Assembly (NCBI GenBank): GCA_016219235.1
Contig: JACRBO010000128.1
Location: 1-12,404, forward strand
DNA length: 12,404 bases
Reading direction: 5' to 3'
Source: Chloroflexota bacterium
GTDB taxonomy: Bacteria > Chloroflexota > Anaerolineae > Fen-1058
Shown piece by piece: positions 7,130 through 9,399 of the stretch (positions within the stretch are counted from its first letter, which is position 1; every line of letters starts with the position of its first letter). The notes under the pieces were generated by a model. That model had not been told where the DNA came from, made no database searches, and saw only the letters and a list, made by a program, of their open reading frames with translations. The position numbers and the translations under genes were made by a program.

Positions 7130-7831
7130 CTACTTCTTCGCGGCCCTGCTCGCCGCCGCCTTTTTCGGCGCGGCCTTTTGCGCCGCCGTCTTGCTCGTGC
7201 GCGCCAGCACGCCGATCTTTTCCAGCAGTTGTTTCTTGCCGCGCAGCGCCACCCTGGCGATCTTTAAGTATTGCGCTACCCACTCGCTCATCGCAGCAAG
7301 GGCCGCATCTTGATCTTGTGTAGCCTGCTGCGCCGACCCCTTCGCCATTTCCTGCGCCTGATTAGCCTGATCGTAAGCCTCGATCTTGGCGCGTTCGGCA
7401 GCGAGCCGCTCGGCATCGTAGCCGTATTCGGCCAGCGCGGCTATTTCGCCCGCGTTATCGAACAGCGTGTAGCCCGCCGCGATGAAGGCCGCCGTGCCGC
7501 GCGGTTCTTTGCCCAGCCCTAACATGGCCTGCTCTTCTTTGCTCAACGCGGCCCGCGCCACCTTCGCCAGCGCCTGATAGGCGTCGCGCGCGTCAGTCAG
7601 CGCCGCTTTCAACTGCGCGGTGGTGTCTTTCTGTGTGCCCTTGCCCGACTTCTGCGCGTTGACGGCGGCCAGGGCCGCGTCGTACAACGCCTTGCCCTTG
7701 TTCAACTTGGCCGTGGTAAAGCCAAACTGCGCCACGGCGGCCTTGATTTCGGGGTCGGCCAGTGAGTTGGCAATGGCCAGTTGCGCAGCGTTCAACTGCT
7801 GGGCGGCGGACTTCATCGGTCGAGTAGACAT
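7130..7831 (-). CDS. Unknown all-alpha protein with internal duplication and Lys/Ala-rich tail
   Basis: A 233-residue protein, Ala-rich and predicted all-helical, with no signal peptide or membrane helix. AAAGGA (7841-7846) stands 9 nt before the ATG; a second ATG six codons in is possible. Residues about 28-96 and 129-196 are two copies of the same unit: both begin E-I-x(1,2)-A followed by an aromatic-Gly-aromatic (FGF / YGY), then a Leu helix, a Lys/Gly/Gln turn, and end in [VI]AR-x-AL. The last 20 residues (AAQKAAPKKAAASRAAKK type) resemble histone-H1-like tails and could bind nucleic acid or another polyanion. I do not recognise a family with a known function. It is transcribed alone: terminator after it, repeats before it. 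A structural or DNA-associated role is a guess from the tail only. Confidence 0.82.
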   Translation of the reverse strand: MSTRPMKSAAQQLNAAQLAIANSLADPEIKAAVAQFGFTTAKLNKGKALYDAALAAVNAQKSGKGTQKDTTAQLKAALTDARDAYQALAKVARAALSKEEQAMLGLGKEPRGTAAFIAAGYTLFDNAGEIAALAEYGYDAERLAAERAKIEAYDQANQAQEMAKGSAQQATQDQDAALAAMSEWVAQYLKIARVALRGKKQLLEKIGVLARTSKTAAQKAAPKKAAASRAAKK

Positions 7832-7890: not shown

Positions 7891-8111
7891 GGCACGACGT
7901 TACTGCATGACTGCTGGCGGTTACTTGATGGTTGCTGGCAGTTACTCAAAAGCTGCTTGAAGTTACGCTATGTTTGCTTGAAGTTACTCAACAGTTGCTT
8001 GACGTTACGCGATGCTCGCTTGAAGTTCCTCACAGGCTGCTTGAAGTTACGTTATAGTTGCTTGATGATGTCTGATGATTGCTTGACAGTGCCCAGTATT
8101 TGCTTGAAGCC
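7891..8111. repeat. 21-bp tandem repeat array, about 10.5 copies
   Basis: Units of exactly 21 bp start at 7891, 7912, 7933, 7954, 7975, 7996, 8017, 8038, 8059, 8080 and, partial, 8101. The core is TGCTTGAAGTTAC followed by about eight variable bases; the first and last units are most diverged. Since 21 is seven codons, the plus strand stays open through the whole array and would encode heptads such as CLKLRYV and CLKLLNS, but no ribosome binding site precedes the only start (GTG, 7885). It fills the gap between the minus-strand gene ending upstream at 7831 and the REPIN array. I treat it as non-coding. Confidence 0.88.
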
Positions 8112-8138
8112 AAGCAGGCACATGGCGCGCTGCCGACT

Positions 8139-8319
8139 AGACCTCGGAGGTTTTCACAGACCATCAGGCAATGGCTGACAGTCCTGCGAGCCGACCAGCA
8201 GGCAAAGCCAACCGGCCCGTTAAACCTCCGAGGTCTTTCACCTGCGCGGCGCACCAGACCTCGGAGGTTTTACGCGATAGTCGCTCACGCCAGATAATCG
8301 TTGAAAACCTCCGAGGTCT
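8139..8319. repeat. REPIN block, left: two inverted REP pairs
   Basis: Two units built from the 16-mer AGACCTCGGAGGTTTT and its inverse AAAACCTCCGAGGTCT. Unit 1: arms at 8139-8154 and 8221-8236 (one mismatch) with a diverged 66-nt centre. Unit 2: arms at 8256-8271 and 8304-8319 with a 32-nt centre. The 19-nt spacer TTCACCTGCGCGGCGCACC (8237-8255) is the same as in the right block. Unit 2 ends exactly next to the stop codon of the transposase gene, so its 16-bp stem would be the 3' hairpin of that transcript. Confidence 0.92.
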
Positions 8320-8898
8320 TCAGTCCGCTTCGTCCAGCAACACAGCCTGCAAGTCCTTTTCCTCGGCAAGTTCTTGATGTCGCTTAACAAAGCCGTCACA
8401 TCCGCCAAACCAATCCAGGACTTCAACGCGCTTCACAAAGGTTGGCTTGTCCATCAGAAAGAGATGATACGATGAGTAGGGATAATCGCGAAAGTCCGGT
8501 ACAAAGCCGTGTTTCTGCGGGTTCCAGTGAATGTAATGGATCAGCCGTTGAAAGTAGCGATCGGTCGTTACGGCCTTGCGGCGAAAGCGATTCTCGAACA
8601 GACTACCGGTGCGTCCATAGGCACGGTTGATGGCTTTGCTATAGGCGTTGAAGAAGTTGGCGAAGTGTTGACCGGGATTTGTTAGACCTTCGAGGTTTTC
8701 TTTGATGCGTACGCCGATATGAAAATGATTGCGCAGCAGGCAATAGGCAAAGGTCTCGGCGACCGGCGCGATATGTCGGGCATACAAGTTCATGAAGTGC
8801 GTGTAGTTACGCTCTTCGATGAAAATGTTGTCGCCGTTGTTGCCGCGATTGTAGATGTGGTAATACTTGCCCGGTTCAAGTGGAATGGTCTGTTGCAT
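8320..8898 (-). CDS. REP-associated tyrosine transposase (RAYT, Y1/HUH family)
   Basis: A 192-residue single-strand DNA nuclease/transposase of the IS200-like Y1 superfamily, RAYT branch, which in known cases cuts and joins REP hairpins. The ATG at 8898 is chosen because GTAGGAG ends 5 nt before it; a GTG at 8904 would overlap that site. Family marks: the opening YYHIYNRGNNG, the HUH pair H58-F-H60 in LLRNHFHIGV, the central FFNAYSKAINRAY and GSLFENRFRRK, and DRYFQRLIHYIHWNPQKHGF, where Y115 (or Y122) is the likely catalytic tyrosine. The length is usual for RAYTs and no frame break is seen, so it may be active. It is flanked on both sides by REPIN units, its presumed substrates. Codons for NLEGL carry a REP-like sequence (8684-8699). 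Transcription probably comes from the promoter at 9240-9268. Confidence 0.95.
   Translation of the reverse strand: MQQTIPLEPGKYYHIYNRGNNGDNIFIEERNYTHFMNLYARHIAPVAETFAYCLLRNHFHIGVRIKENLEGLTNPGQHFANFFNAYSKAINRAYGRTGSLFENRFRRKAVTTDRYFQRLIHYIHWNPQKHGFVPDFRDYPYSSYHLFLMDKPTFVKRVEVLDWFGGCDGFVKRHQELAEEKDLQAVLLDEAD
8684..8699. repeat. REP-like sequence inside the transposase gene
   Basis: AGACCTTCGAGGTTTT matches the REP 16-mer AGACCTCGGAGGTTTT at 14 of 16 positions, differing only at the two central bases. It encodes ENLEGL on the minus strand, in frame with the transposase. Confidence 0.6.
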
Positions 8899-8917
8899 GT
8901 TCACTCCTACGCCAGAT

Positions 8918-9147
8918 AGACCTCGGAGGTTTTACGCGATGGTCGCTCATACCAGATAATCGTTGAAAACCTCCGAGGTCTATCACCTGCGCGGCGCACC
9001 AGACCTCGGAGGTTTTATGCGATGGTCGCTCATGCCAGATAATCGTTGAAAACCTCCGAGGTCTTTCACCTGCGCGGCGCACCAGACCTCGGAGGTTTTA
9101 CGCGATGGTCGCTCATGCCAGATAATCGTTGAAAACCTCCGAGGTCT
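8918..9147. repeat. REPIN block, right: three inverted REP pairs in exact 83-bp period
   Basis: Three units at 8918-8981, 9001-9064 and 9084-9147. Each has the 16-bp arm AGACCTCGGAGGTTTT, a 32-nt centre and the exact inverse arm; 19-nt spacers (8982-9000, 9065-9083) are nearly identical, giving a period of 83 bp. The centre holds a small nested inverted repeat, GCGA-TGG-TCGC. Differences between units are a few single bases, which points to recent tandem copying. The plan (two inverted REPs around a short centre) is that of REPINs mobilised by RAYTs. Confidence 0.95.
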
Positions 9148-9210
9148 TTCACCATACAATTCGGCGAGTTGCGCTTCAAAATGCTGGCGGGGAGTGATTG
9201 ATCTAGACAT
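9148..9210 (-). pseudogene. Possible 5' remnant of a gene cut by the REPIN array
   Basis: From an ATG at 9210 the minus strand encodes MSRSITPRQHFEAQLAELYG, which looks like a normal protein start, and then the frame runs into repeat-encoded sequence. A near-consensus promoter (9240-9268) stands about 25 nt upstream of the ATG at its expected start point. A gene broken by array growth is one reading; a leader peptide for the transposase transcript is another. No strong ribosome binding site is seen. Confidence 0.3.
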
Positions 9211-9239
9211 GGTCTTCGTCTGGTGAAAGGGATGCGGCA

Positions 9240-9268
9240 AGTATAGCCAGAATGAAGGTAGGGGTCAA
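9240..9268 (-). promoter_or_regulatory. Near-consensus sigma70-type promoter facing the REPIN array and transposase
   Basis: On the minus strand TTGACC (9268-9263, five of six) and TATACT (9245-9240, five of six) are 17 nt apart. Transcription would begin near 9233 and run through the possible gene remnant, three REPIN units and the transposase. It is one of the best promoter matches in the window. Confidence 0.6.
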
Positions 9269-9297
9269 ACGGGGTTAGGTCTGATGCCTTCGCCACG

Positions 9298-9339
9298 CGA
9301 AACAAACCCGCCAGACGATCACTCGATCATCCGGCGGGT
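9298..9339 (-). terminator. Intrinsic terminator of the right-hand kinase operon
   Basis: On the minus strand ACCCGCC (9339-9333) pairs with GGCGGGT (9312-9306), with a further inner GATC/GATC pairing, followed by TTTGTTTCG (9306-9298). It lies about 60 nt after the stop of the last receiver gene. The T-run is interrupted, so it may be moderately efficient. Confidence 0.65.
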
Positions 9340-9341
9340 GG

Positions 9342-9366
9342 ATGCCCGACGACAACATTCGGGCAT
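9342..9366. repeat. Second hairpin next to the operon terminator
   Basis: ATGCCCGA (9342-9349) and TCGGGCAT (9359-9366) form a perfect 8-bp stem with a 9-nt loop. It has no T-tract. It would lie just before the terminator in the minus-strand transcript and could protect the 3' end. Confidence 0.6.
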
Positions 9367-9399
9367 GACGTTTATGTAGTACGCATTACGTATTACTCG

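Follow-up and report, generated by a model that had tools for sequence, protein, structure and literature searches.

Tandem clusters of REPINs beside REP-associated tyrosine transposase (RAYT) genes were published in 2011 for P. fluorescens SBW25 (PMC3116915). In-frame REPs residing inside the tnpAREP gene itself have been described for subclass 2.4, which corresponds to RAYT group 4, and the cited part of that work calls such REPs unique to this subclass (PMC6006769). Palindromic repeats that lie in frame within other genes are represented by the Rickettsia palindromic elements and by intragenic REPs (PMC3733652), and other TnpAREPs process single-stranded REP DNA in vitro (PMC8266576).

The stretch analysed here (the window) comprises 12,404 nucleotides of a Chloroflexota genome (contig JACRBO010000128.1), and its coordinates and sequence, as given in a first-pass annotation, were found to be correct on re-examination. 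Ten intact REP arms of 15–16 nt, AGACCTCGGAGGTTT(T), were identified in the region 8139–9147, where they form five REPINs (U1–U5) accompanied by one decayed arm. U1 (8139–8236) and U2 (8256–8319) are located downstream, and U3 (8918–8981), U4 (9001–9064), and U5 (9084–9147) upstream, of a minus-strand RAYT gene (8320–8898; ATG at 8896–8898), which encodes a TnpAREP-like HUH transposase of 192 amino acids. U2–U5 are each 64 bp in length and show pairwise differences at 1–3 of 64 positions (1–2 of 64 within the U3–U5 tandem). U1 spans 98 bp, with 15-bp arms (8139–8153 and 8222–8236) and a middle part unrelated to the other units, and thus cannot be counted among the copies of the 64-nt unit. The starts of U3–U5 follow an exact 83-bp period. 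Neighbouring units are separated by 19-nt spacers; those between U1 and U2 (TTCACCTGCGCGGCGCACC; 8237–8255) and between U4 and U5 (9065–9083) are identical, and that between U3 and U4 (8982–9000) differs from them by one base. The arm of U2 ends at 8319 and abuts the stop codon (8320–8322), and U3 begins 20 nt from the start codon. The period, the spacers, and the close fit of the arms to the gene had all been reported in the annotation and are borne out here. Its description of five inverted REP pairs with 16-bp arms, two on the 3′ side and three on the 5′ side of the gene, holds for the number and distribution of the pairs but not for U1, with its shorter arms and longer unit; it also overlooked an eleventh, decayed arm at 8684–8698.

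When up to three mismatches were allowed, the 15-mer gave 22 matches in the window (11 sites, each on both strands) versus 0.15 expected, and none of 200 shuffled sequences reached 22, which excludes a chance origin of the arms. Three of the four 64-nt units (U2, U3, and U5) each fold into a single DNA hairpin (−19.8 to −21.0 kcal/mol; z = −6.4 to −7.6), and the corresponding values for U1 are −24.8 kcal/mol and z = −5.3. All four units folded (U1, U2, U3, and U5) therefore consist of two inverted REPs in one hairpin, the arrangement by which REPINs are recognised.

The encoded protein contains the motifs NHFH (residues 57–60) and YIHWNP (residues 122–127, with Y122), i.e. the HuH motif and the Y in YIxxNP that are RAYT traits, and the flanking of its gene by REPs is a further such trait. 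The closest solved chain, both by sequence (E = 2.2e-5) and by fold (E = 4e-7; AlphaFold model with a pLDDT of 84), is that of E. coli TnpAREP with a REP hairpin (PDB 4er8), although the identity in the fold alignment is only 18%, and the REPs of the E. coli protein, as described in the literature consulted, form a bulged hairpin and carry a GTAG motif, unlike the window arms. A homology search yielded 5603 homologues, and among the 120 listed, some had been named RayT or putative transposase by their sources. A search of PHROGs returned one family of unknown function, and a plasmid search returned no match. Two results count against the identification as a RAYT: a Pfam search gave no match up to E = 0.1, and the score with the NCBIfam RAYT model NF047646 was 54.3 bits, below the cut-off of 80, which is a naming threshold and not a defining trait. 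As the fold and motifs nevertheless agree, the protein is read as a member of a divergent branch, and the assignment made in the annotation, a RAYT with its own REPINs, is upheld by the HUH motif, the TnpAREP-like fold, and the flanking REPs.

On the left side, a PQLLE-family gene (7130–7831, minus strand) is the neighbour that marks the same site in relatives. Between this gene and the array, upstream of the gene, are 21-bp tandem repeats (7899–8109; core GCTTGAAGTTAC), which end in a small palindrome, are common to orthologous loci, and are not part of the RAYT–REPIN unit. The PQLLE-family gene has 10 matches in genome G001 and 18 in genome G028 (some weak, partial, or containing stops), and it may therefore itself be amplified. 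On the right side, the segment 9157–9252 (minus strand) is 76% identical over 97 bp to a region of G028 and corresponds to the start of an MmeI-like restriction-modification gene, taking in its promoter region and its initial 18 codons; the copy of this gene in G028 encodes N6_Mtase and MmeI_Mtase domains scoring above cut-off. Because the remainder of this gene is absent from the window, the array lies where a former gene has been broken. An ORF at 8983–9240 was rejected as a real gene, since its first 18 codons from the ATG at 9210 match the start of the restriction-modification gene and the rest is derived from the array. Short stretches at 9236–9274 and 9339–9371 recur at many places in the G001-family genomes; the latter, part of a palindrome, may represent another repeat family.

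In the contig scan, at least 592 stretches were identified, at least 549 of them with a relative, and the best 80 of these at least 549 were kept, giving 81 loci with the window. Among the best 80 relatives, 47 belong to Chloroflexota according to their record titles, and the others include members of Bacteroidota, Beggiatoa-like and methanotrophic Proteobacteria, and Geobacter. A flanking arm was found in 74 of the 81 loci, i.e. in 73 of the best 80 relatives, from several phyla. The flanking arms typically read AGACCYNNNRGGTTT and form one class without a GTRG foot; an orientation giving this reading could be assigned to 307 of 445 arms, and in it the G and the TT result from the way of orienting, whereas the leading A (97%) does not. 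A GTRG foot was present within 8 nt of 18 of 403 arms (4.5%) versus 2.8% in the background, a result that counts against the interpretation preferred below; being near background, it indicates that these arms are not the GTRG REPs seen beside most subclass 2.2, 2.4, 2.5, 2.7, and 2.8 genes in the cited part of PMC6006769. Inside the gene, arm density in the 81 loci was 1.35 per kb; outside it, the density fell from 4.99 per kb in the nearest 300 bp to 0.30 at 300–1000 bp and 0.08 beyond 1 kb. The first downstream arm lies at a median of 9 nt after the stop codon (39 loci with an arm within 300 bp) and the last upstream arm at a median of 21 nt before the start codon (47 loci with an arm within 300 bp), so that the tight fit between arms and gene in the window is the rule in the clade. 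Long arrays beside the gene were found in several of the best 80 loci (e.g. L034, L039, and L074). Together with the clusters published in 2011 (PMC3116915), these features contradict the earlier suggestion that an array with the gene inside is less usual.

Compared with the described systems, the locus shares with subclass 2.4 a REP-flanked RAYT, in-frame REPs between HuH and Y, a loop of variable length, and occurrence in several phyla, but the REPs of that subclass carry a GT[AG]G foot or a double foot, whereas those found here, AGACCYNNNRGGTTT, are footless (PMC6006769). Of the subclass 2.4 motifs NH[IFV]H, WQ, and YIxNNP, the first accommodates the NHFH of the window protein, whereas F-E, by our reading of the alignment, stands in place of W-Q, and YIHWNP departs from the third. 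Subclass 2.6 (RAYT group 5) is similar in having atypical REPs without GTRG, but its motifs, NH[LIV]H and YIH[QN]NP, differ from NHFH and YIHWNP (PMC6006769). The SBW25 loci resemble the window in that near-identical REPINs, including their flanking sequence, are repeated in tandem in clusters adjoining each RAYT; however, a different REP family is involved, and the cluster lies beside the gene there, whereas the gene lies between like units here (PMC3116915). The Rickettsia elements and intragenic REPs are likewise palindromic repeats in frame in coding sequences, but they reside in many unrelated host genes, whereas the host gene here is the cognate transposase; the CGTC kind described in the same paper seems to be without a dedicated transposase (PMC3733652).

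The decayed arm in the window (AGACCTTCGAGGTTT; 8684–8698, approximately codons 67–72) retains an intact stem and has two mismatches, both at loop bases. It is in frame between HuH and Y, as in subclass 2.4, and in the predicted model it falls in the loop between the strand of residues 59–65 and the helix of residues 75–93, after the HUH strand. In relatives, the same loop is variable in length and often contains REP-derived residues. At L040, where the loop has 47 residues, residues 81–101 are predicted to be disordered (pLDDT of approximately 42), the remainder of the model being confident. In a de novo word count, many genes showed inverted palindrome pairs on both sides and often inside as well, with a core that differs by locus and internal palindromes located mostly at nt 190–310 of the gene. 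Using the pattern ACCYNNNRGGT, an internal arm was found in 50 of the 81 loci (the window and the best 80 relatives), 49 of which have both internal and flanking arms, and no recognisable internal arm was found in the other 31. In 41 of these 49 loci, the main type inside the gene also occurs in the flanks of that locus, compared with a mean of 8.1 and a maximum of 18 in 10,000 permutations; the window is one of the eight loci in which the internal type is unlike the flank, which also counts against the preferred interpretation. An 11-mer is common to the loop and its own flank in 51 of the 81 loci, the figure for the loop and a foreign flank being 16%. Other parts of the gene share an 11-mer with their own flank in 14 of the 81 loci, probably owing to arms that overlap the gene ends, or to chance. 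The internal arms (67 in total, two of them near the C-terminus) are distributed over all six orientation and frame classes (20, 17, 14, 8, 7, and 1), and the peptide is therefore not what is conserved. A peptide-level function of the insert was considered and is unlikely, given the use of all six classes and the predicted disorder of the L040 segment.

On one RAYT tree, flanking and internal REPs underwent approximately 20 joint changes of type. This tree contains 76 RAYTs and was built with the loop excluded, five loci having been dropped for a missing motif; 25 of its 73 inner branches are drawn open. Of the 46 tree loci with both kinds of arm, 38 have a main internal type identical to the main flanking type. 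Parsimony gave 18 changes of flank type, 21 changes of internal type, and 22 joint changes, the last being near the floor of 21, whereas shuffling the internal types over the tips (300 shuffles), a weak null that ignores relatedness, gave an average of 36.7 joint changes and a minimum of 33. No statement on joint switching of internal and flanking types was found in the main text of open-licence papers, and no title on REPs was among the matches listed when six arm cores were used as a literature query.

The generic arm is dispersed in all 15 of the relatives' genomes searched for it, with 5–273 copies versus 0–6 for the reversed pattern. The excess is weakest in G013 (5 versus 1), G015 (20 versus 6), and G011 (20 versus 5), and many of the dispersed places listed are inverted pairs 18 nt apart. 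Three of the five G001-family genomes, G031, G029, and G030, contain 99, 20, and 20 arms, respectively, and gave no RAYT match at E = 1e-10 in assemblies of many contigs, which argues against a simple one-to-one link between arms and RAYT.

At the orthologous site of a Thermoflexales MAG (L001), the PQLLE neighbour, the 21-bp repeats, and the RAYT gene are found at the same place as in the window. L001 has one downstream REPIN versus two in the window, two intact internal arms versus one decayed arm, and one 36-bp REPIN upstream (a minimum, as the contig begins there) versus three of 64 bp. Unit number, which the annotation had named as a point of comparison between relatives, thus varies at the same site. 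U3–U5 are closely similar to U2 and partly similar to the downstream unit of L001, a pattern that may reflect spreading of copies to the 5′ side of the gene from its 3′ side. Two Marithrix loci, L039 and L053, contain 15 and 10 core copies within 500 bp, respectively, with a gene region that is 95% identical. At L041 (5300–6862), two RAYTs with 83% identity are arranged in tandem, each with its own internal REPIN, and this pair is a possible intermediate in the movement of units across the gene.

Of 23 Methylobacter genomes, 20 contain the left flank of the intergenic site at which L036 resides. The RAYT and REPINs are present at this site in three of the 20, both flanks are present without the RAYT in five (one with approximately 500 bp of other sequence between them), and only the left flank was found in 12, with no RAYT in the stretch examined (two of these stretches end within approximately 100 bp). 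Gain and loss of the RAYT at this site are indistinguishable. One of the filled loci has one internal REPIN, and the other two have two; in the latter genes, the order and orientation of the double internal REPIN are the same as in the upstream pair, which is the clearest sign of copying between the flank and the coding loop. For the window array, the array is missing at the PQLLE orthologues of G029, G030, and G031, but homology with the window extends no further than 8118–8129 there, and the sequence beyond each break differs from the window; the array is also absent at the response-regulator orthologue of G030. A clean empty site, of the kind that the annotation proposed to look for in related strains, was thus not seen for the window array itself.

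Two candidates for a moved or copied unit were rejected. The RAYT blocks of L021 and L023 share 97% identity and terminate within REP arms, and thus looked like a transposition of the entire unit; however, the left flank of L023 (90%) is present on the contig of the L021 RAYT, approximately 200 bp away, indicating one site with a shorter array. The two RAYTs found in one genome (L066 and L073) are not a recent copy, only the gene being alike (68%). The contig of L023 is binned as Spartobacteria; its RAYT is 97% identical to that of Chloroploca, and its 135-bp left flank is also found beside the Chloroploca RAYT, a likeness that reflects either a binning error or transfer.

The locus is very probably a REPtron, in which a RAYT (an HUH/Y1 single-strand DNA endonuclease) is accompanied by cognate REPINs that it spreads. 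The RAYT would recognise the single-stranded REP hairpin AGACCY-NNN-RGGTTT (with G.T wobble) and cut and rejoin DNA there, whereby REPINs would spread through the genome and into the neighbourhood of the RAYT itself. Recombination or slippage between near-identical REPINs would make and trim tandem units such as the 83-bp array and, occasionally, duplicate the gene together with its REPINs. Of the rolling or slippage-type amplification suggested in the annotation, slippage or recombination is retained as this presumed step, and nothing was found that favours rolling. REPINs would enter the RAYT gene in frame at a single surface loop that follows the HUH strand and tolerates insertion, and re-insertion or gene conversion would hold internal REPINs to the flanking type, with the window gene retaining only a worn arm. 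This reading draws on the anatomy of the locus, the likeness to TnpAREP, the dispersal in relatives, the same-site change in copy number, the one case of presence and absence in Methylobacter, and the match between internal and flanking arms, from which we infer the activity of the enzyme, the route of copying, and any benefit.

Three other explanations were weighed against the REPtron. The annotation had raised a self-carrying element, in which REPIN–RAYT–REPIN would move as a unit in the manner of IS200/IS605, the array being a by-product of repeated arrivals. The median distances of the arms from both gene ends, the Methylobacter site with and without the RAYT, the end of homology short of the array in three G001-family genomes, and the truncation of the restriction-modification gene by the array would all be compatible with such an element. 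However, among 24 relatives' genomes searched at E = 1e-20, 15 gave one RAYT match and three more gave two pieces that were read as halves of one gene, so that 18 of 24 have a single copy and not the many near-identical copies per genome that are a trait of IS200/IS605. Moreover, L066 and L073 share only the gene, L021 and L023 represent the same site, and in the stretches examined, the three filled Methylobacter loci lack a REP arm on their right side. The G001-family neighbourhoods are wholly different, hence the absence of a clean empty site, and the Methylobacter pattern would fit loss as well as gain. A self-carrying element is thus quite unlikely. It is very improbable that the array is a local tandem repeat generated by slippage or unequal recombination next to a RAYT that is a bystander and does not act on the repeats: the exact tandem of U3–U5, with 1–2 differences in 64, and the occurrence in G013 of tandem arrays of a related unit (a repeat of approximately 92 bp matching the downstream REPIN region of L023) on contigs other than that of the RAYT are in line with this view, but a generic-class arm flanks the gene in 73 of the 80 best relatives, arm density near the gene is approximately 60-fold that beyond 1 kb, and the arms are scattered through the genomes of relatives and switch type in parallel within the gene and in its flanks.

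The repeats could also serve mainly as regulatory hairpins of the RAYT transcript (in the 5′ leader, the loop, and the 3′ end), selected for expression control, with mobility being secondary. An arm is positioned 10–54 nt before the start codon in 45 of the 47 loci with one within 300 bp upstream and no more than 31 nt from the stop codon in 37 of the 39 loci with one within 300 bp downstream, and the use of all six frame and orientation classes by internal arms would suit a role in the transcript. Such a role is nevertheless unlikely to be the main one, because the number, spacing, and orientation of the repeats vary between orthologues, 31 of the 81 loci have no recognisable internal arm, and the dispersed copies elsewhere would need a separate explanation.

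A REPtron of this kind combines features that are already known, namely a RAYT/REPIN locus, tandem clusters beside RAYTs, and in-frame REPs as in subclass 2.4. Less ordinary are the footless REP class in 73 of the 80 best relatives and the match between internal and flanking types in 41 of 49 loci. It is conceivable, albeit rather doubtful, that a large cross-phylum branch of GTRG-free RAYTs keeps its current cognate REPIN in frame as a working part, i.e. as a built-in substrate or self-targeting switch that moves along with the enzyme, is rewritten whenever REP specificity changes, and limits the enzyme or seeds new REPIN families. If this is true, limitation would operate through nicking or folding of the RAYT's own gene or message, and seeding would follow transfer to a new host. 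Orthologous sites differ in the number of REPINs that lie in frame inside the RAYT gene. These findings bear on the maintenance of RAYTs as single genes and on shifts of type within REP families, and they extend RAYT biology to REPs without the guide tetranucleotide that is the basis of most present models.
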